Origin: Bartonella birtlesii IBS 325 | GTDB lineage: Bacteria; Pseudomonadota; Alphaproteobacteria; Rhizobiales; Rhizobiaceae | Length of the DNA: 64,000 nucleotides | NCBI RefSeq assembly: GCF_000273375.1 | Contig: NZ_CM001557.1 | Coordinates: 446,466 to 510,465 of the forward strand | Direction of reading: 5' to 3' | Shown here: piece after piece, positions 18,881-28,928 of the stretch | Numbering within the stretch: position 1 is the first letter of the stretch | Layout of the letters: every line of letters begins with the position of its first letter | Translations under genes and position numbers: made by a program | Notes under the pieces: generated by a model | What the model saw: only the letters and a program-made list of their open reading frames with translations | Databases searched by the model: none | What the model was told of the DNA's origin: nothing

Positions 18881-20188
18881 TCATTTACCAATACAAAATT
18901 CTGAAAAAATAACATCAAGCAAATCTTCAACATCTATATCTCCAGTAATTTTTCCAAGAAAATCACTGGCACGGCGAAGATGTTCTGCACGTAAACTTAA
19001 ATCAAGAGTATGATAGTTTATGGAAAATTCTATTTCTTTAACAGCTTCTTTTAATAACTGAAGTTGCCTTTTACGCGCTGGAACAAGATTTCCAATTTCA
19101 GCGGCACGACGTAAACAAAATGATTCAATTTCTTTAATAAAATAATCAAAATTCAAACCAGTTATTGTAGAAAATTGTATAGACCAGTTATTTTCATTTT
19201 TTTCATAAAGGTCAAGTTTATTACCAACACGCCATATTTCAGCCGATGTCTTTGGTAATTCAATCTCCTTTGGATTTATCATATCATAAACTAAAATAAC
19301 TAAATCAGCATCTCTAATATGCTTCCTTGCAACTTCTATTCCTAATTGCTCGATTTTGTTTTCTGTTTCCCTAAAACCAGCAGTATCTGTCAAAAAAATT
19401 GGTATACCACCAAGAACAAGCCTTATTTCTAAAGCATCACGCGTTGTTCCTGCCTCATCTGTCACAATAGCAACAGGTTTTCCAGCCAAACGATTCATGA
19501 TGCTTGATTTTCCAGAATTTGGAGCACCAGCAATAACAATTTGTAATCCATCACGTAAAATACTCGCACGTTCTCCTTCATCAATATGTTTTTGAAGAGA
19601 AGTACGAAGATTTTCTACATCTTTCCAAATTTTATCAGATACCGAATTTGGAACATCAGTTTCATCAGCAAAATCAAGTTCTACTTCAATAAAAGCACGT
19701 GCTTTCATAAGTTTGCTGCGCCAATCACGATAAAGTGCTGTTAAACGCCCACTTGTCCCCATAATAGCCAAACGCCGCTGACTTTCCGTTTCTGCTTCTA
19801 TTAAATCAGCAAGACCTTCTGCTTGAACAAGATCTAACTTCCCTTCCATAAAAGCACGACGCGAAAATTCACCCGCTTCTGCCATACGACATCCAGCAAA
19901 TGTAGATAATTCATCAAGAAAACGATTTACAACCGCTTTTCCCCCATGCAAATGGAATTCTGCACAATCTTCCCCTGTAAAACTATGAGGAGCCGGGAAA
20001 AAAACAGTTAAAGCAGAATCTAGAAAGCTACCATCACGAGCTGTAAGATTTCCATAATGCATAAATCGTGCCTTGGGCAAAAAACCACAAAGTGTTTTAA
20101 CTATATTTATAACATGGGGACCAGAAAGCCGAATGACTGCGACCCCTGAAGGCAACAATCCACTCGAAACAGCAAAGATTGTATCCAC
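18881..20188 (-). CDS. mnmE: tRNA modification GTPase
   Basis: MnmE (TrmE) is the GTPase partner of MnmG. I chose the GTG at 20188, giving MDTIFAVSSGLLPSGVAVIRLSGP and 435 residues, because the family starts here; GGGAT lies upstream. A TTG at 20206 would add six residues. The N-terminal formyl-THF-binding domain is followed by a helical domain and an inserted G domain (GAPNSGKSSIMNRL, DTAGFRET, GNKLD). The C-terminus ends CIGK, with the conserved catalytic cysteine. It begins 33 bases after the rho stop. Confidence 0.94.
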   Translation of the reverse strand: MDTIFAVSSGLLPSGVAVIRLSGPHVINIVKTLCGFLPKARFMHYGNLTARDGSFLDSALTVFFPAPHSFTGEDCAEFHLHGGKAVVNRFLDELSTFAGCRMAEAGEFSRRAFMEGKLDLVQAEGLADLIEAETESQRRLAIMGTSGRLTALYRDWRSKLMKARAFIEVELDFADETDVPNSVSDKIWKDVENLRTSLQKHIDEGERASILRDGLQIVIAGAPNSGKSSIMNRLAGKPVAIVTDEAGTTRDALEIRLVLGGIPIFLTDTAGFRETENKIEQLGIEVARKHIRDADLVILVYDMINPKEIELPKTSAEIWRVGNKLDLYEKNENNWSIQFSTITGLNFDYFIKEIESFCLRRAAEIGNLVPARKRQLQLLKEAVKEIEFSINYHTLDLSLRAEHLRRASDFLGKITGDIDVEDLLDVIFSEFCIGK

Positions 20189-20221
20189 AGGATGTATCCC
20201 AATCAAAAAAAACCAATATTT

Positions 20222-21487
20222 CTACGTATTCATTGAATCAAAAAATTCACTATTGTTTTTTGTTTGTTTTAATTTATCAATCAAAAACTCAATTGCATCT
20301 GTTACGTTCATAGGCGCCAAAATACGACGAAGTACAAAAATTTTATGTAAATCTTGCCGTGCTACTAAAAGTTCTTCTTTACGTGTTCCTGACTTCAATA
20401 TATCCATAGCTGGGAAAATTCGCTTATCAGCAACTTTACGATCAAGAACAATTTCCGAATTACCAGTACCTTTAAATTCTTCAAAAATAACCTCATCCAT
20501 ACGACTACCAGTATCAATCAAAGCCGTTGCAATAATGGTTAAAGATCCACCTTCTTCAATGTTACGTGCTGCGCCAAAAAAACGTTTTGGACGCTGCAAC
20601 GCATTTGCATCTACCCCACCTGTTAAAACCTTACCTGATGAAGGAACAACTGTATTATAGGCACGCCCTAGACGTGTAATAGAATCAAGAAGAATAACAA
20701 CATCACGTCCATGTTCAACAAGACGTTTTGCTTTTTCAATAACCATTTCAGCTACTTGTACATGACGCATTGCTGGTTCATCAAAAGTAGAAGAAACAAC
20801 TTCTCCTTTTACAGAACGTTGCATATCAGTAACTTCTTCTGGACGTTCATCAATTAAAAGAACAATAAGATAACATTCAGGATGATTAGTGGTAATAGAA
20901 TGAGCAATATTTTGAAGTAAAACTGTTTTTCCCGTCCGAGGAGGTGCTACAATAAGCCCTCGTTGACCTTTTCCCAATGGAGATATCAAATCAATCACCC
21001 GCGATGACATATCTTTCTCTGTAGGATCTTGTATTTCCATTTGAAAACGTTCATTAGAATAAAGAGGAGTGAGATTATCAAAATGAATTTTATAGCGGAT
21101 TTTTTCAGGATCTTCAAAATTAATAGTATTAATTTTAAGAAGAGCAAAATAGCGCTCTCCTTCTTTCGGGCTCCGTATAGGACCTTCAACAGTATCACCT
21201 GTTTTTAAAGAAAAAGATTGAATTTGTGCAGGTGAAAGGTAAATATCATCAGGTCCTGGAAGATAATTAGCATCAGCAGATCGTAAAAAACCAAATCCAT
21301 CTTGCAAAACTTCAACAACTCCTTCTCCGATAATTTCTACATCTTGCGAAGCAAGCTTTTTTAAAATAGCAAACATCAATTCTTGTTTGCGCATCAAAGA
21401 AGCATTTTCAACTTCTAATGTTTCAGCAAAAGAAACAAGTTCAACGGGATTTTTACTTTTAAGTTCTTGTAGTTTCATTTCTTGCAT
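20222..21487 (-). CDS. rho: Transcription termination factor Rho
   Basis: RNA-dependent hexameric helicase that ends transcription. The 421 residues start [22 protein letters not shown]. The RNA-binding cold-shock-like domain has YGFGFLR-type sequence ([20 protein letters not shown]). The ATPase core carries [13 protein letters not shown] (Walker A), [14 protein letters not shown] and [13 protein letters not shown]. It is the first gene of the minus-strand rho-mnmE-mnmG-rsmG-parA-parB run, and its promoter must lie in the AT-rich candidate origin region just upstream. Confidence 0.98.
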
Positions 21488-21892
21488 GAAATATGCTCTT
21501 TAAATAAGTGGAGATTGTCCCTGATAATCTACGGAAAATTTAGAGAATATAATACTCTTATAAGAAAAAAGAGCATTGTACACTCAATTTTTAAAATCTG
21601 CAAGCTATTTGTATAAAAATAATTTATTAAATAAAAGAAATATATAAGAAAATCGATTATAGAAATTTTAATTAAGTTACATAAAATACCATTATAAATT
21701 AAGATAATATAAACATATTTAAAAGAGACTATACTGGATATGGATACATTCTATATCACTAATAAATTAATATTCAAAATACTTTTATTTTTCCAGATAA
21801 CCTTATATTAAAAATTTTTGAAAAAGGGGATTATTCTTATTAAAGCCTGTGTTTAACGTAAATTATTAGTTATACTCTATTTATCCTCAATT

Positions 21893-21901
21893 TTATCCAC
21901 A
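21893..21901 (+). promoter_or_regulatory. DnaA box
   Basis: TTATCCACA is identical to the high-affinity DnaA consensus. A one-mismatch copy (TTATCCTCA) starts 12 bases upstream at 21881 in the same orientation, so the two sit about one helical turn apart. Confidence 0.7.
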
Positions 21902-21998
21902 AATGAAAAATAAAAAAAGAAAAGTATAACATTATCTTAAAGCTGCTATTACCACACTTTTTTTATAAGAGGAGATCAGCTATCACAACTGTTCAGTT

Positions 21999-22007
21999 TG
22001 TGCATAA
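21999..22007 (-). promoter_or_regulatory. DnaA box
   Basis: TGTGCATAA on the plus strand is TTATGCACA on the minus strand, a perfect TTATNCACA box. It faces the box at 21893. A further near match, ATATGCACA (first base off), lies at 22057-22065. Confidence 0.65.
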
Positions 22008-22069
22008 TAATGGAAAATTTTCCTCAAATTTTCTTTTTGTAATAAGCGATGCTTATATATGCACATTTG

Positions 22070-22084
22070 TTAACAAGGAGTTAA
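22070..22084 (+). promoter_or_regulatory. CtrA box (TTAA-N7-TTAA) overlapping the ppsR ribosome-binding site
   Basis: The bases read TTAACAAGGAGTTAA, an exact TTAA-N7-TTAA full CtrA site. The spacer includes AAGGAG, which is also the ribosome-binding site of the GTG start at 22092. In Caulobacter, CtrA binding within the origin silences replication. A one-mismatch copy is at 21699-21713 (TTAA, seven bases, TAAA). Confidence 0.65.
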
Positions 22085-22091
22085 AATTTTT

Positions 22092-22916
22092 GTGACAAGA
22101 GATAAAAAAAACTTTCATTTGCACATGCTTTCTGATGCTACAGGAGAAACATTAATCTCTGTTGGAAGAGCTGTTGCATCACAATACACGATGAATCAAG
22201 TAACAGAACATATCTATCCAATGATTCGTAATGAGACACAATTACAAAGAGCTCTTGATGAAATACAACAAGAACCTGGTATTGTTCTTTACACAATCAT
22301 TGATCAAAAAATTAAACTTCTTCTTAAGAAGAAATGTGAAAAAATGAAAGTTCCCTGTATTGACATATTACATCCTGTTTTGGATGCTTTTCAGTCTTAT
22401 CTTGGAATACCAACAAATTTACGTGCCAGTGCACAACATGATCTCAATGCAGACTATTTTCGTCGTATTGAAGCGCTGGATTTTACAATAGAACATGATG
22501 ATGGACAATCTCCCAGTGATCTATCTAATGCAGATGTAATTCTTGTAGGAATCTCAAGAACATCTAAAACACCTACCAGTATTTATTTAGCAAATCGTGG
22601 AGTTAAGACAGCTAATGTTCCTCTTGTTCCGGGAATTGATTTACCAGAAGCTCTTTTAGAAGTAAAAAATTCTTTAATCATAGGTTTAATTGCTTCTGCC
22701 GAAAGAATCTCACATATTCGCCAAAATCGCGATTTGGGAGATAATTTTGCCATTGAGAGTTATACAAATCGTATCAATATTGCTGAAGAATTAACTTATG
22801 CAAAGCGCATTTGTGAACGTTTTGGTTGGCCTATTATTGACGTGACAAGGCGCTCTATTGAAGAGACCGCTGCTGCTATATTTGAGCTTTTAACGCGATT
22901 TCGTGAAGGAAAATGA
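22092..22916 (+). CDS. ppsR: Pyruvate,phosphate dikinase regulatory protein family (DUF299)
   Basis: Member of the bifunctional kinase/pyrophosphorylase family that regulates pyruvate,phosphate dikinase or PEP synthase by phosphorylating a threonine. It is 274 residues with a GTG start preceded by AAGGAG. The N-terminal HMLSDATGETLISVGRAV and the P-loop-like GISRTSKTPTSIYLANRG are diagnostic, and VPLVPG follows. No dikinase gene is present in the window. It is the first plus-strand gene beyond the candidate origin and is followed 9 bases later by maf. Confidence 0.9.
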   Translation: MTRDKKNFHLHMLSDATGETLISVGRAVASQYTMNQVTEHIYPMIRNETQLQRALDEIQQEPGIVLYTIIDQKIKLLLKKKCEKMKVPCIDILHPVLDAFQSYLGIPTNLRASAQHDLNADYFRRIEALDFTIEHDDGQSPSDLSNADVILVGISRTSKTPTSIYLANRGVKTANVPLVPGIDLPEALLEVKNSLIIGLIASAERISHIRQNRDLGDNFAIESYTNRINIAEELTYAKRICERFGWPIIDVTRRSIEETAAAIFELLTRFREGK

Positions 22917-22925
22917 AAGAATCCC

Positions 22926-23522
22926 ATGGTCACAGATAGGCTAATATTAGCATCCCTTAGTTTTTATCGTGCACAATTATTGAAAAAAGCTGGTTTAAGT
23001 TTTTTTACTGAAGCAGCTTCTTTTGATGAAAGAGAAATAGAAAAAACAGGAAAAACAAAGACTCCTAAAGAGCTCAGCTGTTTTCTTGCAAGTGCAAAAG
23101 CAAAAAATGTTTCCGACCGTTTTCCTGGTAACTTAGTTATTGGTTGTGATCAAGTACTTGATTTAAGAGGAAAAGTTTTACATAAAGTCACAAATAGTAA
23201 GGAAGCATATCAACGTTTACGTGATTTGTCAGGAAAATCCCATTCTCTTCATAGTGCAATAGCTTTATTTCAAAATGGCCAAGAAATTTGGACAGAAGTT
23301 TTTAGTGCGCATATGTTGGTGCGCCCTCTTTCATCAGAGTTTATTGAACGTTATTTATCGCGCGTGGGAACAAATGTTTTTAACAGTGTAGGAGTCTATC
23401 AAATTGAAGGAGAAGGAATTCATCTTTTTGATAAAATTGAAGGAGATTTTTTTACAATTATTGGTTTACCTTTATTGCCCTTACTTATAAAACTGCGTCA
23501 TTTAGGGGTTATTGATGGTTAA
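22926..23522 (+). CDS. maf: Maf-family nucleoside triphosphate pyrophosphatase
   Basis: House-cleaning pyrophosphatase that hydrolyses dTTP/UTP or modified nucleotides. It has 198 residues opening [23 protein letters not shown]; the usual SxSxxR signature appears here as SLSFYR. The catalytic GCDQVLD segment is near residue 75, and [12 protein letters not shown] closes the protein. Its TAA lies inside the aroE start region (aroE ATG at 23515, an 8-base overlap), so the two are translationally coupled. Confidence 0.9.
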
Positions 23523-24396
23523 TCTAACAATAAAGCATGAAAAAATAGATTTTCCACGTGCCTTTGTTGTTGGTATTCCTATTCATCATTCAAAATCGCC
23601 AAAAATACATAATTTTTGGCTTAAACAATATGATCTACAAGGCGAATATATCGCACAAGAAGTAAGATCTGAAGAATTTAGGGATTTTTTCAGATCTCTA
23701 AAAAAGAGAGGGTTTTGTGGGGGTAATGTTACACTACCCCATAAACAGGAAGCTTTTCATTTGGCAAATTATAAAGATGATGTAGCAACAATGATTGGTG
23801 CTGTTAATACGCTTTGGTATGAAGGAGATAAACTTTGTGCCACAAATAGTGATGCTTACGGTTTTAGTGCTAATCTTGATGATTTTGCTCCTGATTGGAT
23901 AGGAGAAACGGCAGTTATTTTTGGTGCAGGTGGTGCTGCACGCGCTGTCCTATATTCCTTAAAAAAACGTGGATTTGAACGTATTTGCTTATTCAATCGT
24001 ACAAAGAGGCGTGCAGAAGATTTAGCGCAGCATTTTGGAAAAACTATTGAAGTTTGTGACTGGCAAAATATACATGAAATACTTTATCAGGCTGATTTGA
24101 TTGTTAATACAACTTCTTTAGGTATGATAAATCCTCATGAGAAAAAAAATGATTCTTTTTTTTGTGATTTTTATAACGCGAAGACAACAGCATTGGTGAC
24201 AGATATTGTTTACACACCATTGGTAACACCTTTTCTACAACAAGCAAAAACGCATGGTTTAAAAACTGTTGATGGACTGGGTATGCTTTTGCATCAAGCT
24301 GTTGTAGGTTTTGAACGATGGTTTGGAATAAGACCACAAGTTACAAAGGCACTACGAACAGCAATTTTAGAGGATATGGGTGAAGAAAAAAGATGA
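23515..24396 (+). CDS. aroE: Shikimate dehydrogenase
   Basis: NADPH-dependent reduction of 3-dehydroshikimate in aromatic amino-acid synthesis. From the ATG at 23515 it has 293 residues. The substrate site shows [17 protein letters not shown] and [13 protein letters not shown]; the cofactor site is [14 protein letters not shown] with [20 protein letters not shown] is near the end. It contains intact runs of eight A and eight T (near 24141-24163), both in frame. The end overlaps coaE as ATGA. Confidence 0.95.
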
Positions 24397-24984: not shown

Positions 24985-25692
24985 ATGCGTGAAGTTATTT
25001 TTGATACAGAAACAACAGGTTTAGATAAAGAGAAAGATCGCATAATAGAAATCGGTTGTGTAGAGATGGTTGATCGTTATCTTACAGGGCGCCGATTCCA
25101 TGTTTATTTGAATCCACAAGGCATTATTATTCCTGATGAAGTTGTAGCGATTCATGGATTGACCAATGAACGCTTAAAGAATGAAAAAAACTTTAGTGAT
25201 ATTGCTGATGAGTTTTTAGAATTTATTAATGGCGCAACAATGATTGCTCATAATGCAAGCTTTGATATTGGTTTTCTTAATGCAGAATTAGGACGGGCGA
25301 ATAGACCACTTATCAGTGTTGATAACATTCTTGATACATTGGCTATGGCACGGCGTAAGTTTCCTATGGGACCGAATTCACTTGATGTTTTGTGCAAACG
25401 TTTTGGAATTGATAATAGTCATCGTGTTCTTCATGGCGCTTTACTTGATGCAGAGATTCTTGCCGATGTTTACATCGAACTCATTGGTGGCAAGCAGGGG
25501 GTATTAGGTTTTAATAAAAAGCAGGGAGATGATGAAGATTCCAAAAATGACAAAGATGCTCTCTATGCGGTTAAATCCCGTCCACAAGCCTTAGCTCCAA
25601 GATTAAGTGCACAAGAAAAAAGTCTGCATGCTGATTTTATTAACAAAATGGGAGAAAAGGCTTTGTGGAATGATTTCGAAATTCCTGAGTAA
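24985..25692 (+). CDS. dnaQ: DNA polymerase III epsilon subunit, 3'-5' proofreading exonuclease
   Basis: Proofreading subunit of the replicative polymerase. The 235 residues carry the exonuclease motifs FDTETTGLD (Exo I), IAHNASFDIGFL (Exo II) and HGALLDAEILADVY (Exo III with its histidine). The C-terminal tail, which normally contacts the alpha subunit, has an acidic linker (GDDEDSKNDKD) and a charged end. It is the last gene of the maf-aroE-coaE-dnaQ cluster. Confidence 0.95.
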   Translation: MREVIFDTETTGLDKEKDRIIEIGCVEMVDRYLTGRRFHVYLNPQGIIIPDEVVAIHGLTNERLKNEKNFSDIADEFLEFINGATMIAHNASFDIGFLNAELGRANRPLISVDNILDTLAMARRKFPMGPNSLDVLCKRFGIDNSHRVLHGALLDAEILADVYIELIGGKQGVLGFNKKQGDDEDSKNDKDALYAVKSRPQALAPRLSAQEKSLHADFINKMGEKALWNDFEIPE

Positions 25693-25751
25693 AGAATGCA
25701 ACCTTTTTCTTTAAATCTGGGAAGAATAAAATCTCTAAAAACACTGCCCTT

Positions 25752-25793
25752 AAAAAATACGGTCGTTGTGGGGAGGGGAACACCACAACGACC
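25752..25793 (-). terminator. Intrinsic terminator, minus strand
   Basis: GGTCGTTGTGG at 25761-25771 pairs perfectly with CCACAACGACC at 25783-25793, leaving an 11-base loop. On the minus strand the hairpin is followed by GTATTTTTT, a classical U tract; on the plus strand no T run follows. Since no minus-strand protein gene lies upstream, it should end a non-coding transcript. Confidence 0.8.
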
Positions 25794-25837
25794 ATGTCGC
25801 CACATAGTACCTCAGCTATCATAGGAGGAGCAAAATG
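25752..25837 (-). ncRNA. Candidate small RNA with two anti-Shine-Dalgarno motifs
   Basis: On the minus strand a TATAAT box (plus 25844-25849) is followed about 7 bases later by a stretch of about 85 bases that ends in a strong terminator. The would-be RNA carries GCUCCUCCU near its 5' end (plus 25822-25831) and UUCCCCUCC in the loop of the terminator hairpin. Exposed CCUCC motifs able to pair with ribosome-binding sites are a feature of several alphaproteobacterial small-RNA families (suhB/ar14 type, CcsR cuckoo RNAs). I cannot assign it to one. The -35 element is weak, and the start point is an estimate. Confidence 0.5.
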
Positions 25838-26021
25838 AAAGCTATTATATCCTGTAACAGCAAAGAAAAGCTCTAGGTACCAAATATAAATTGCAACGAC
25901 TTCATACCTTATGAAAAGAAAAAATGGCTTTTTAGAGGCAGCTTGATAAATTTTATTATAAGAGCAAAAAAATATTTGAGAGAGAATTATTTTTAGGCAG
26001 AAATGGAGAAGTGAAATTGTC

Positions 26022-28928
26022 ATGAAAGCAACAGATCATCTTTTTTTGGTTGATGGGTCGGGCTATATTTTTCGTGCTTACTATGCTTTACCGCCTTTAA
26101 AGCGCAAAAAGGATGGTCTTCCTGTAGGAGCTGTCGCTGGTTTTTGTAATATGCTATGGAAATTACTCTGTGATGCGCGCAATACAGCTACTGGTGTTGT
26201 TCCAACGCATTTTGCTGTTATTTTTGATTATTCATCCGATACATTTCGGAAACAAATTTATCCACAATATAAGGCAAATCGTGAGATACCTCCTGAAGAT
26301 CTTATTCCACAATTCGCATTAATACGCCAAGCAACAAAAGCTTTTAATTTGCCTTGTATTGAAGAGGAAGGATTTGAAGCGGATGATTTAATTGCTACCT
26401 ATGCAAAATTGGCAACAAAGGTTGGAGCAAAAACAACAATTATTTCTTCTGATAAAGATCTTATGCAACTCGTAAATACGCATGTATCTTTGTATGATAG
26501 TATGAAAGATAAACATATTGGTATTTCCGAAGTTATAGAAAAATGGGGTGTCGCACCTGAAAAAATGGTTGATTTGCAGGCTTTGATTGGAGATACAACA
26601 GATAATGTGCCAGGTATTCCAGGTATTGGTCCAAAAATCGCTGCCCAACTGCTGGATCAATTTGGTTCTCTTGATCTTTTATTACAGCGCGTGGCAGAAA
26701 TTAAGCAAACAAAACGGCGTGAAAATATTCAAAATTATAGTGAACAGGCAAAAATTTCTCGTGAACTGGTGCGTCTTAAAACAGATGTGCCTATAGACAA
26801 TAATTTAGACGATTTTATTTTGGAACCCCAAGATGGTCCACGCTTAATCGCTTTTCTTAAAACGATGGAATTTACGACATTAACACGTCGTGTAGCAGAG
26901 GCAACGATGTGCGATGCAGCAGTAATTGATGCACTTGATATAGATGTTGAATGGGAAAAGCCTAAATATAAGAACGATTTTGATATAAAAGATGTTAATA
27001 GTACACTCTCACATAATTTTTCTGAAAATTCTCCACAAAGCTTAGCGGAAAAGTGCAAAGGTCAAGCACTAACACAAAAAATTACAAGAGATACTTATAC
27101 AACTATTCTTGATGAAGAAGTTTTGAAAGATTGGTTATGGAAAGCAGAAGAACAAGGCTTTTTTGCTTTTGATACTGAAACAACTTCACTTGATCCACTA
27201 CAAGCAAAGCTTGTTGGTTTTTCATTAGCATTAAAGCCGGGAAAAGCAGCTTATGTGCCTCTTGAACATGTTGAAGGGGAAGATGATCTGTTAGGAGGAG
27301 CGCGCATTGTAGGGCAGATTGAACCCCAGAAAGCTTTAGCACTTTTAAAGCCGATATTAGAAAATCAAGCAGTTTTAAAAATTGGCCAGAATATAAAATA
27401 TGATTGGTTAGTGATGAAGCAAAAGGGCATTGTGATACGTTCTTTTGATGATACCATGCTTTTGTCCTATGTTTTGGATGCTGGATCTTTAACCCATAAT
27501 ATGGATGATTTGTCTAAACGTTGGCTTGGACATACACCGATTGCCTACAAGGATTTAACGCATAACGGAAAAAAGATCACTTCTTTTGCAAAGGTGGATT
27601 TGAAACAGGCAACTCTTTATGCGGCTGAAGATGCTGATGTAACGCTGCGTTTGTGGCAAGTTTTAAAACCACAACTTGTATCTCAAAGGATGACAAAAAT
27701 TTATGAACGTTTTGATAGGCCGCTAATAGAAGTACTCGCGAGAATGGAAGAACGTGGGATTCTTGTTGATAGGCAGATTTTATTGCGTCTTTCAGGAGAA
27801 TTAGCGCAGGCTGCTTTGATTCTAGAAGAGGAAATTTATCAGCTAGCTGGTGAGAAATTTAATATTGCTTCACCAAAGCAATTAGGTGATATCCTTTTTG
27901 GCAAAATGAGATTACCCGGAGGTGCTAAAACCAAGGGTGGACAGTGGTCAACTTCTGCACAGACTTTAGAAGAATTAGCTGCTGAAGGCCATGTTTTACC
28001 GCGTAAAGTCATTGATTGGCGCCAGCTTGCAAAGCTAAAATCTACTTATACAGATGCTTTGCCCTCTTATATTTTGCCAAAAACAGGGCGAGTCCATACA
28101 AACTACTCTTTGGCAACAACATCAACAGGGCGGTTATCATCATCAGAACCAAATTTACAAAATATTCCTGTACGGACCGCTGAAGGGCGTAAAATTCGCA
28201 CAGCTTTTATTGCTCCAAAAGGACATGTGTTACTTTCGGCCGATTATAGTCAGATTGAATTGCGTATTCTTGCGCATATTGCCGATATCACGGCATTAAA
28301 AGAAGCTTTTGCTAAAGGGCAGGATATTCATGCTATGACGGCATCACAAATGTTTGGCGTTGCGATAGAGGGGATGGATTCAGATATACGGCGTCGTGCA
28401 AAAGCAATTAATTTTGGTATTATTTATGGCATTTCAGCATTTGGATTAGCCAATCAATTGGGATTTTCACGGCAAGAAGCAGGGCGTTATATTCAACTCT
28501 ATTTTGAAAGATTTCCAGGAATTAAAGACTATATGGAGAAAACAAAAATCTTTGCACGTCAGAATGGGTATGTAGAGACAATTTTTGGACGTCGTATTCA
28601 TTATCCAGAAATAAAAGCAACGAATCTACAAGTTCGTTCTTTTAATGAGCGTGCTGCTATTAATGCACCGATTCAAGGGTCAGCAGCAGATATTATTCGC
28701 CGTGCCATGATTCACATGGAAGATGCTTTGCAAAAAGAGAAATTATCAGCAAAAATGTTGCTACAAGTGCATGATGAACTGATTTTTGAGGTACCAGAAG
28801 ATGAAAGTGAAAAAACCATGGTTGTTGTTAAAAAGGTCATGGAAAATGCTGCAATGCCTGTTCTCTCTTTATCAGTACCCCTTGAAGTAAAAGTCATGAT
28901 TGCAAAAAATTGGGATGAAGCACATTAA
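26022..28928 (+). CDS. polA: DNA polymerase I
   Basis: Repair and Okazaki-fragment polymerase of 968 residues with all three activities. The 5' nuclease domain (about 1-300) shows LVDGSGYIFRAYYA and GIPGIGPKIAAQLL. The 3'-5' exonuclease domain (about 350-560) has the catalytic FDTETTSLD, QNIKYDWLVM and YAAEDADVTLRLW, so proofreading is intact, which is not true of every bacterial PolA. The polymerase domain has SADYSQIELRILAHI (motif A), RRAKAINFGIIYGIS (motif B) and QVHDELIFEVP (motif C). It ends 10 bases from the convergent nuclease-family gene. Confidence 0.98.
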   Translation: MKATDHLFLVDGSGYIFRAYYALPPLKRKKDGLPVGAVAGFCNMLWKLLCDARNTATGVVPTHFAVIFDYSSDTFRKQIYPQYKANREIPPEDLIPQFALIRQATKAFNLPCIEEEGFEADDLIATYAKLATKVGAKTTIISSDKDLMQLVNTHVSLYDSMKDKHIGISEVIEKWGVAPEKMVDLQALIGDTTDNVPGIPGIGPKIAAQLLDQFGSLDLLLQRVAEIKQTKRRENIQNYSEQAKISRELVRLKTDVPIDNNLDDFILEPQDGPRLIAFLKTMEFTTLTRRVAEATMCDAAVIDALDIDVEWEKPKYKNDFDIKDVNSTLSHNFSENSPQSLAEKCKGQALTQKITRDTYTTILDEEVLKDWLWKAEEQGFFAFDTETTSLDPLQAKLVGFSLALKPGKAAYVPLEHVEGEDDLLGGARIVGQIEPQKALALLKPILENQAVLKIGQNIKYDWLVMKQKGIVIRSFDDTMLLSYVLDAGSLTHNMDDLSKRWLGHTPIAYKDLTHNGKKITSFAKVDLKQATLYAAEDADVTLRLWQVLKPQLVSQRMTKIYERFDRPLIEVLARMEERGILVDRQILLRLSGELAQAALILEEEIYQLAGEKFNIASPKQLGDILFGKMRLPGGAKTKGGQWSTSAQTLEELAAEGHVLPRKVIDWRQLAKLKSTYTDALPSYILPKTGRVHTNYSLATTSTGRLSSSEPNLQNIPVRTAEGRKIRTAFIAPKGHVLLSADYSQIELRILAHIADITALKEAFAKGQDIHAMTASQMFGVAIEGMDSDIRRRAKAINFGIIYGISAFGLANQLGFSRQEAGRYIQLYFERFPGIKDYMEKTKIFARQNGYVETIFGRRIHYPEIKATNLQVRSFNERAAINAPIQGSAADIIRRAMIHMEDALQKEKLSAKMLLQVHDELIFEVPEDESEKTMVVVKKVMENAAMPVLSLSVPLEVKVMIAKNWDEAH

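Follow-up and report, generated by a model that had tools for sequence, protein, structure and literature searches.

A small RNA gene beside polA in Bartonella birtlesii is probably a diverged variant at the ar7 locus

We analysed a 64,000-nucleotide stretch of the Bartonella birtlesii IBS 325 genome (contig NZ_CM001557.1, positions 446,466 to 510,465; hereafter the window). The minus strand of the gap between dnaQ and polA carries a small RNA (sRNA) gene that is very probably real, known in kind and new in form. We predict that the gene spans ~151 nt, is read divergently from polA and has a promoter and a terminator of its own; it would descend from the ancestral alphaproteobacterial sRNA ar7 (sra03, SmrC7 or SmelC023 in S. 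meliloti). The promoter, length, neighbours and C-rich terminator hairpin would have been kept from ar7, and the 5' two thirds would have been rebuilt in this Bartonella lineage from a chain of small hairpins into one arm closed by a long-range helix. The anatomy of the gene, its minus-strand fold, its conservation and the orthology of its locus all have computed support. We hold with high confidence that the gene is real, and its orthology to ar7 is very likely. An independent sRNA gene that descends from ar7 is, taken as a whole, a likely reading, in which the mechanism is the favoured but unproven part.

Results

Elements of the sRNA gene

An earlier note on this DNA had described a perfect 11-bp terminator and two C-rich motifs on the minus strand of the gap. 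We found all three in the sequence, and the elements of the locus are as follows.

24985..25692, plus strand: dnaQ, the neighbour on the terminator side of the sRNA gene
25752..25757, minus strand: T-run of the terminator, present in the sequence
25761..25793, minus strand: terminator hairpin, a perfect 11-bp stem (25793-25783 with 25771-25761) closing the loop TGTTCCCCTCC
25772..25782, minus strand: terminator loop with the invariant CCCCUCC, the proposed main seed
25830-25823, minus strand: CUCCUCCU, complementary to ribosome-binding sites and mostly paired in the predicted fold
25849-25844, minus strand: TATAAT, in the predicted apical loop of helix P3
25752..25902, minus strand: putative sRNA transcript of ~151 nt, placed from the match of the R2 model described below (25905-25754), the conservation profile and an ar7-like promoter offset, with a predicted start site good to +/- ~3 nt
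25909..25914, minus strand: putative -10-like element TCATAA, proposed from its sequence and not conserved letter for letter
25937-25932, minus strand: -35-like element CTCTAA, within the conserved promoter block
25919..25939, minus strand: conserved promoter block, alignable to the block CCCTTGAAAAGCC found in ar7-type Bartonella
26022..28928, plus strand: polA, divergent from the sRNA gene

The terminator was the sole perfect 11-bp stem of its kind in the 64 kb, both strands included (perfect 11 bp, at least 5 G/C, loop of 3-12, at least 6 T in the next 10 bases), and 20 Markov-1 control sequences gave one match in total. A simple terminator scan missed it because its loop limit is 3-8. The terminator region is overlapped by two minus-strand ORFs (127 and 80 aa). 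Pfam gave no match to either at E <= 1, and in 29 relatives the uninterrupted frame through the terminator was between 32 and 143 aa long. We therefore rejected a minus-strand protein gene as the explanation of the terminator, as the earlier note had also concluded.

Conservation across Bartonella

Of 37 genomes of the genus, the own one included, 29 matched a 111-base query strongly (E <= 2.8e-13). Mean identity over the 29 loci was 0.97 at 25941-25922 (the promoter block), 0.79 over the next 40 bases and 0.92-0.98 over 25881-25762, and then 0.61 and 0.38 just past the terminator. The upstream flank on the polA side was also fairly conserved (mean identity 0.74-0.89). The earlier note had proposed conservation of the two C-rich motifs as a check: the terminator-loop CCCCUCC was present in 29/29 relatives and CUCCUCC in 23/29.

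Loci of the same type as in B. birtlesii were found in B. tribocorum L103, B. callosciuri and B. bacilliformis Ver097. Bartonella sp. M0177, presumably a honey-bee isolate, has an ar7-type locus. We take the Bartonella that carry the diverged, B. birtlesii-type locus to be mammal-associated. A search of 72,556 plasmid records for copies of the sRNA gave no match at E 1e-5.

A covarying fold on the minus strand

RNAalifold, run on the 29 sequences, predicted 38 pairs, which form the long-range helix P1 followed by P2, P3 and the terminator. The predicted arms and loop are as follows.

25892..25900, minus strand: 5' arm of P1, the long-range helix; 3 of 9 pairs changed on both sides
25796..25804, minus strand: 3' arm of P1, from the RNAalifold fold and pair changes
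25876..25880 and 25811-25807, minus strand: P2, 5' arm GUACC and 3' arm GGUAC
25850..25861, minus strand: 5' arm of P3, GCUGUUA.AGGA; 2 of 11 pairs changed on both sides
25815..25826, minus strand: 3' arm of P3, UCCU.UGAUAGC, from the RNAalifold fold and pair changes
25827..25849, minus strand: apical loop of P3, holding TATAAT and the first half of CUCCUCCU

P2 was mostly invariant, with zero pairs changed on both sides. Half of CUCCUCCU pairs with the AGGA inside P3, and part of the P3 apical loop also pairs in the single-sequence fold. Over the whole fold, 7 of the 38 pairs were changed on both sides, where shuffles gave 2.7. Paired cells made up 98.6%, compared to 97.4% in shuffles and at most 60.7% in slid controls; the 29 sequences that score the fold also served to derive it, and shuffles do not remove relatedness. 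One slid control (+3) had 8 pairs changed on both sides, but only 60.6% of its cells pair. The compensatory changes that the earlier note had suggested looking for are thus found, in a covarying fold kept across 29 Bartonella.

G-U pairs made up 136 of 1101 cells, and 953 cells were paired when read as the plus strand compared to 1086 as the minus strand. The minus-strand fold was also more stable than the plus-strand fold in 29/29 sequences. The fold therefore fits an RNA made from the minus strand. Conservation, covariation and synteny together make a minus-strand sRNA with C-rich motifs a well-supported conclusion.

Possible masking of ribosome-binding sites

The sRNA would most likely act in trans through the open CCCCUCC of its terminator loop. 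This C-rich seed would pair with purine-rich ribosome-binding sites and lower translation, and CUCCUCCU might assist once P3 opens; both the pairing with mRNAs and the repression are predictions. The predicted fold leaves the terminator loop open but pairs most of CUCCUCCU, and it closes 7 of the 9 bases of GCUCCUCCU. We took 44 approximate start regions from the window and compared pairing with them to pairing with coding sequence, using 200 shuffles of each loop. The terminator loop preferred starts over coding sequence more than most of its shuffles did (9/200 as good), and the P3 loop did no better over the 44 approximate starts than its own shuffles (94/200 as good). The earlier proposal, that the motifs could block many mRNAs with AGGAGG-like sites, is only weakly supported.

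The complement of the P3 seed occurred at 16 sites in the own genome, one of them the sRNA locus, compared to 13 for the reversed pattern, and was not enriched. Two of the 15 other sites are at a reading frame of more than 80 codons. One of the two overlaps the start of a 504-codon frame; the other, ATAGAAGGAGTAGAATG (own genome C1:1049192-1049208, minus strand; L078), precedes a frame that is presumably rpsR (ribosomal protein S18), has 3 mismatches to the complement and could be chance.

An sRNA at the ar7 locus might also work without masking, through a protein partner or other stretches such as the open UUUUCUUUG or UUUCAUUUU, with the terminator loop kept for termination or stability. We rate this as possible, if rather unlikely. 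It accords with the pairing and start-region results for CUCCUCCU, with the lack of seed enrichment, and with the ar7 literature, the consulted parts of which describe no function or target that we found. It sits poorly with a CCCCUCC that is invariant and predicted open, since termination alone would not need this motif, and with the recurrence of C-rich loops in ar7. The related C-rich loops of NfeR1 (ar14), complementary to ribosome-binding sites, silence mRNAs according to the part of PMC10746234 consulted. We favour, with middling confidence, the reading in which the terminator loop masks ribosome-binding sites.

A more tentative possibility is that in this Bartonella lineage ar7 was refolded at its ancestral place, so that several open C-rich loops became one open terminator-loop seed and a second, stem-locked motif, together a lockable switch. 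CATTTTGCTCCTCC, complementary to a start codon and ribosome-binding site together, was found in 21/29 relatives. As the second anti-ribosome-site motif of such a switch it would be closed in the stem against the built-in AGGA. The switch would perhaps have originated when the bacteria took up life in mammalian blood.

Relation to ar7

The earlier note had called the feature unannotated. This holds at Rfam gathering cut-offs, where a scan of the window gave 0 matches; the locus itself is that of a known sRNA (ar7/sra03/SmrC7/SmelC023). A permissive Rfam scan of the locus scored ar7 (RF02342) at 13.9 bits (E 1.4; gathering 60), and a search of the own genome for ar7 found none at E <= 0.001. All 8 same-genus genomes that had no strong blast match carried ar7 above the cut-off, adjoining polA and divergent from it. 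The same arrangement with polA was seen at 29/29 loci of the B. birtlesii type, 13/13 ar7-type Bartonella loci and 15/17 rhizobial loci above the cut-off. dnaQ was a neighbour at 29/29 diverged-type loci and, within 3-kb loci, at 8/13 ar7-type Bartonella loci. Before counting we left out L030 (a chance match), L063-L066 (below the cut-off, no polA found) and L044. The last (L044:1501-1640) is a second weak ar7 match of the ar7-type genome G012, at 32.7 bits with no polA found nearby, and is either chance or a second copy.

We built a model, R2, from 10/13 ar7-type Bartonella and 7/17 rhizobial loci above the cut-off, with no diverged-type rows. R2 matched 29/29 diverged-type loci, and the sRNA locus was its sole match at E <= 10 in the own 1.83-Mb genome (43.0 bits, E 3.7e-8; E-values of R1, R2 and R3 are rough). 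It was found in 248/297 genomes of the family (training genomes included). At 72 of 80 named polA loci, 11 of them of diverged type, the match lay upstream of polA on the opposite strand, a count that includes training genomes (L125 was also in the training set). The reverse model R1, built from the 29 diverged-type sequences, matched 12/12 ar7-type Bartonella loci given to it (L032 was not given) and 9/17 rhizobial loci at E < 0.001, many ar7 loci being matched via little beyond the terminator. By blastn of 5/29 diverged-type against 4/13 ar7-type loci, the promoter and terminator blocks aligned separately (best E 2.4e-7; best reversed control 0.043).

The B. birtlesii gene resembles ar7 in adjoining polA divergently, in ending with a 3' terminator hairpin that has a C-rich loop and, judged from sequence only, in its promoter block and length of ~150 nt. 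This length matches SmrC7, for which the part of PMC2780559 consulted gives 148-150 nt. It differs from ar7 in its Rfam score (13.9 vs 60 bits), in 5' 105 positions that are unrecognisable, and in having the long-range P1 where ar7 has a local first hairpin. Of the two middle hairpins with conserved loops described for ar7 (PMC3927594, consulted in part), the HP2 loop GUCCCC is absent and the loop of hairpin 3 is altered.

R3, an ar7 model without the terminator, matched 0/29 diverged-type loci; the body can therefore no longer be recognised as ar7, and it could have been swapped for another while the promoter and terminator on either side were retained. A new RNA body placed between the old ar7 promoter and old ar7 terminator, with a 5' part not derived from ar7, would account for this, for the missing GUCCCC and for the different fold. 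We judge it unlikely, given that the overall length is unchanged, that in the R2 alignment a C-rich loop stands where ar7 has its hairpin 3, and that a 64-66 nt blastn alignment between L024 or L027 and L039 reaches upstream of the terminator. Because the Rfam cut-off was not reached and R3 found 0/29, we regard the gene as a diverged variant at the ar7 locus and not a standard ar7 member. A fitting annotation is ar7-locus sRNA variant, which is not an ar7 member by the Rfam definition.

The following background comes from the consulted parts of the cited papers. The ar7 RNA of S. meliloti has a 106-nt processed form and is upregulated ~13-fold in nodules (PMC2780559), and it gave no signal in Hfq co-precipitates (PMC2848018). 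sra03 is divergent from polA in PMC2573895 and the RNA is on the plus strand in PMC2873474; Table 4 of PMC2245857, contrary to both, draws it in the direction of polA. ar7 has conserved middle loops and adjoins the DNA polymerase I gene with one exception (PMC3927594). The same paper lists Bartonellaceae among the families of a seven-model group that includes SmelC023, but the 29 relatives it reports for SmelC023 alone are from Rhizobiaceae, Brucellaceae and Phyllobacteriaceae. Among the papers listed by our literature searches, none was seen to describe an ar7 homologue in mammal-associated Bartonella; the B. bacilliformis RNA may be in S3 Table of PMC7717549.

Promoter and length

The promoter-block pattern GCC..T.AAAAG.CA was present in 29/29 relatives, and GCCTCTAAAAAGCCA itself in 21/29 (counted by eye). 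TCATAA follows CTCTAA at a distance of 17 nt. Because conservation continues upstream to the block at 25939-25919, which can be aligned with the ar7 promoter, the predicted feature is ~151 nt long and not ~85 as first described; the earlier note had covered its 3' two thirds only. Transcription from this promoter is likewise predicted.

An sRNA of ~85 nt that starts just after the TATAAT at 25849 and acts mainly via CUCCUCCU is very improbable. The TATAAT, CUCCUCCU and terminator are all present, and a processed short form is conceivable, as for the 106-nt SmrC7 in the consulted part of PMC2780559. The shorter stretch (25751-25850) does beat shuffles in folding (z = -3.9), but the longer RNA (25753-25905) folds better (z = -5.1). 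The conserved block and the covarying arm of P1 both lie upstream of this start, and a promoter scan gave no site ending at the TATAAT of 25849. ATATAAT was kept in only 14/29 relatives, with a base deleted in 8 and substitutions in the other 7. We thus rejected the TATAAT box as the promoter; a conserved promoter-like block lies ~90 bases upstream.

A plus-strand role for the conserved element, as polA leader or as a mini-ORF (AGGAGGAGCAAAATG, 13 codons), is hardly credible: a good ribosome-binding site and ATG are present there, but the ATG is lost in 5/29 relatives and the frame shifted in 8/29, G-U pairs make the fold specific to the minus strand, and no plus-strand T-run follows the hairpin.

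Comparison with other sRNA families

The earlier note had pointed to suhB and ar14 for a covariance search; the locus matches neither and corresponds to ar7 instead. The search with suhB (RF00519) gave 6 weak matches elsewhere and none at the sRNA locus, ar15 (RF02345) gave no match, and ar14 gave none at the locus. We accordingly rejected membership in suhB, ar15 or ar14. suhB/ar15 (AbcR) RNAs are similar in being alphaproteobacterial with CU-rich motifs (PMC7143759, in part). ar14/NfeR1, the cuckoo RNAs, are similar in having loops complementary to ribosome-binding sites and differ in having three hairpins each with CCUCCUCCC (PMC10746234, in part). CCUCCUCCC was found in 0/29 Bartonella rows, as was CCTCCTCCC, which serves as the ar14/cuckoo criterion.

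BbsR14 of B. bacilliformis, another Bartonella sRNA, likewise carries motifs that are complementary to ribosome-binding sites; it differs in having two loops with nearly identical TTCCTCCTAA (PMC7717549, in part), and this motif fits an ar14-like place elsewhere in the genome, L194. The B. bacilliformis row (L029) has no CCTCCT, so that, judged by motif, it differs from all four RNAs listed in PMC7717549.

L194 (1501-1618; own genome C1:571249-571366, plus strand), which lies outside the window, is a weak ar14 match of 31 bits compared to a cut-off of 58.8. Weak ar14 matches also occurred in 9/14 control genomes. Its TTTTCCTCCTAA loop equals the motif reported for BbsR14 (PMC7717549, in part), and the place is perhaps a Bartonella relative of ar14.

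Discussion

The GC skew changes sign at ~20-24 kb of the window, and the earlier description of the sRNA as lying near the origin is therefore fair. The change falls within window positions 20000-24000, between a minus-strand gene that we take to be rho and a plus-strand gene at 22092, and this interval is probably the replication origin; dnaA is ~138 kb away. A tie of the sRNA to replication is speculation.

If our reading is true, the old ar7 family would extend to Bartonella species that the Rfam model misses, and the locus would show clearly how an sRNA can keep its promoter, place and terminator through a rebuilding of its body. Because the consulted ar7 literature gave us no described function or target, the compact Bartonella genome offers a place to look for one. 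A further suggestion of this reading is that the best-conserved functional part of an sRNA can be its terminator loop.
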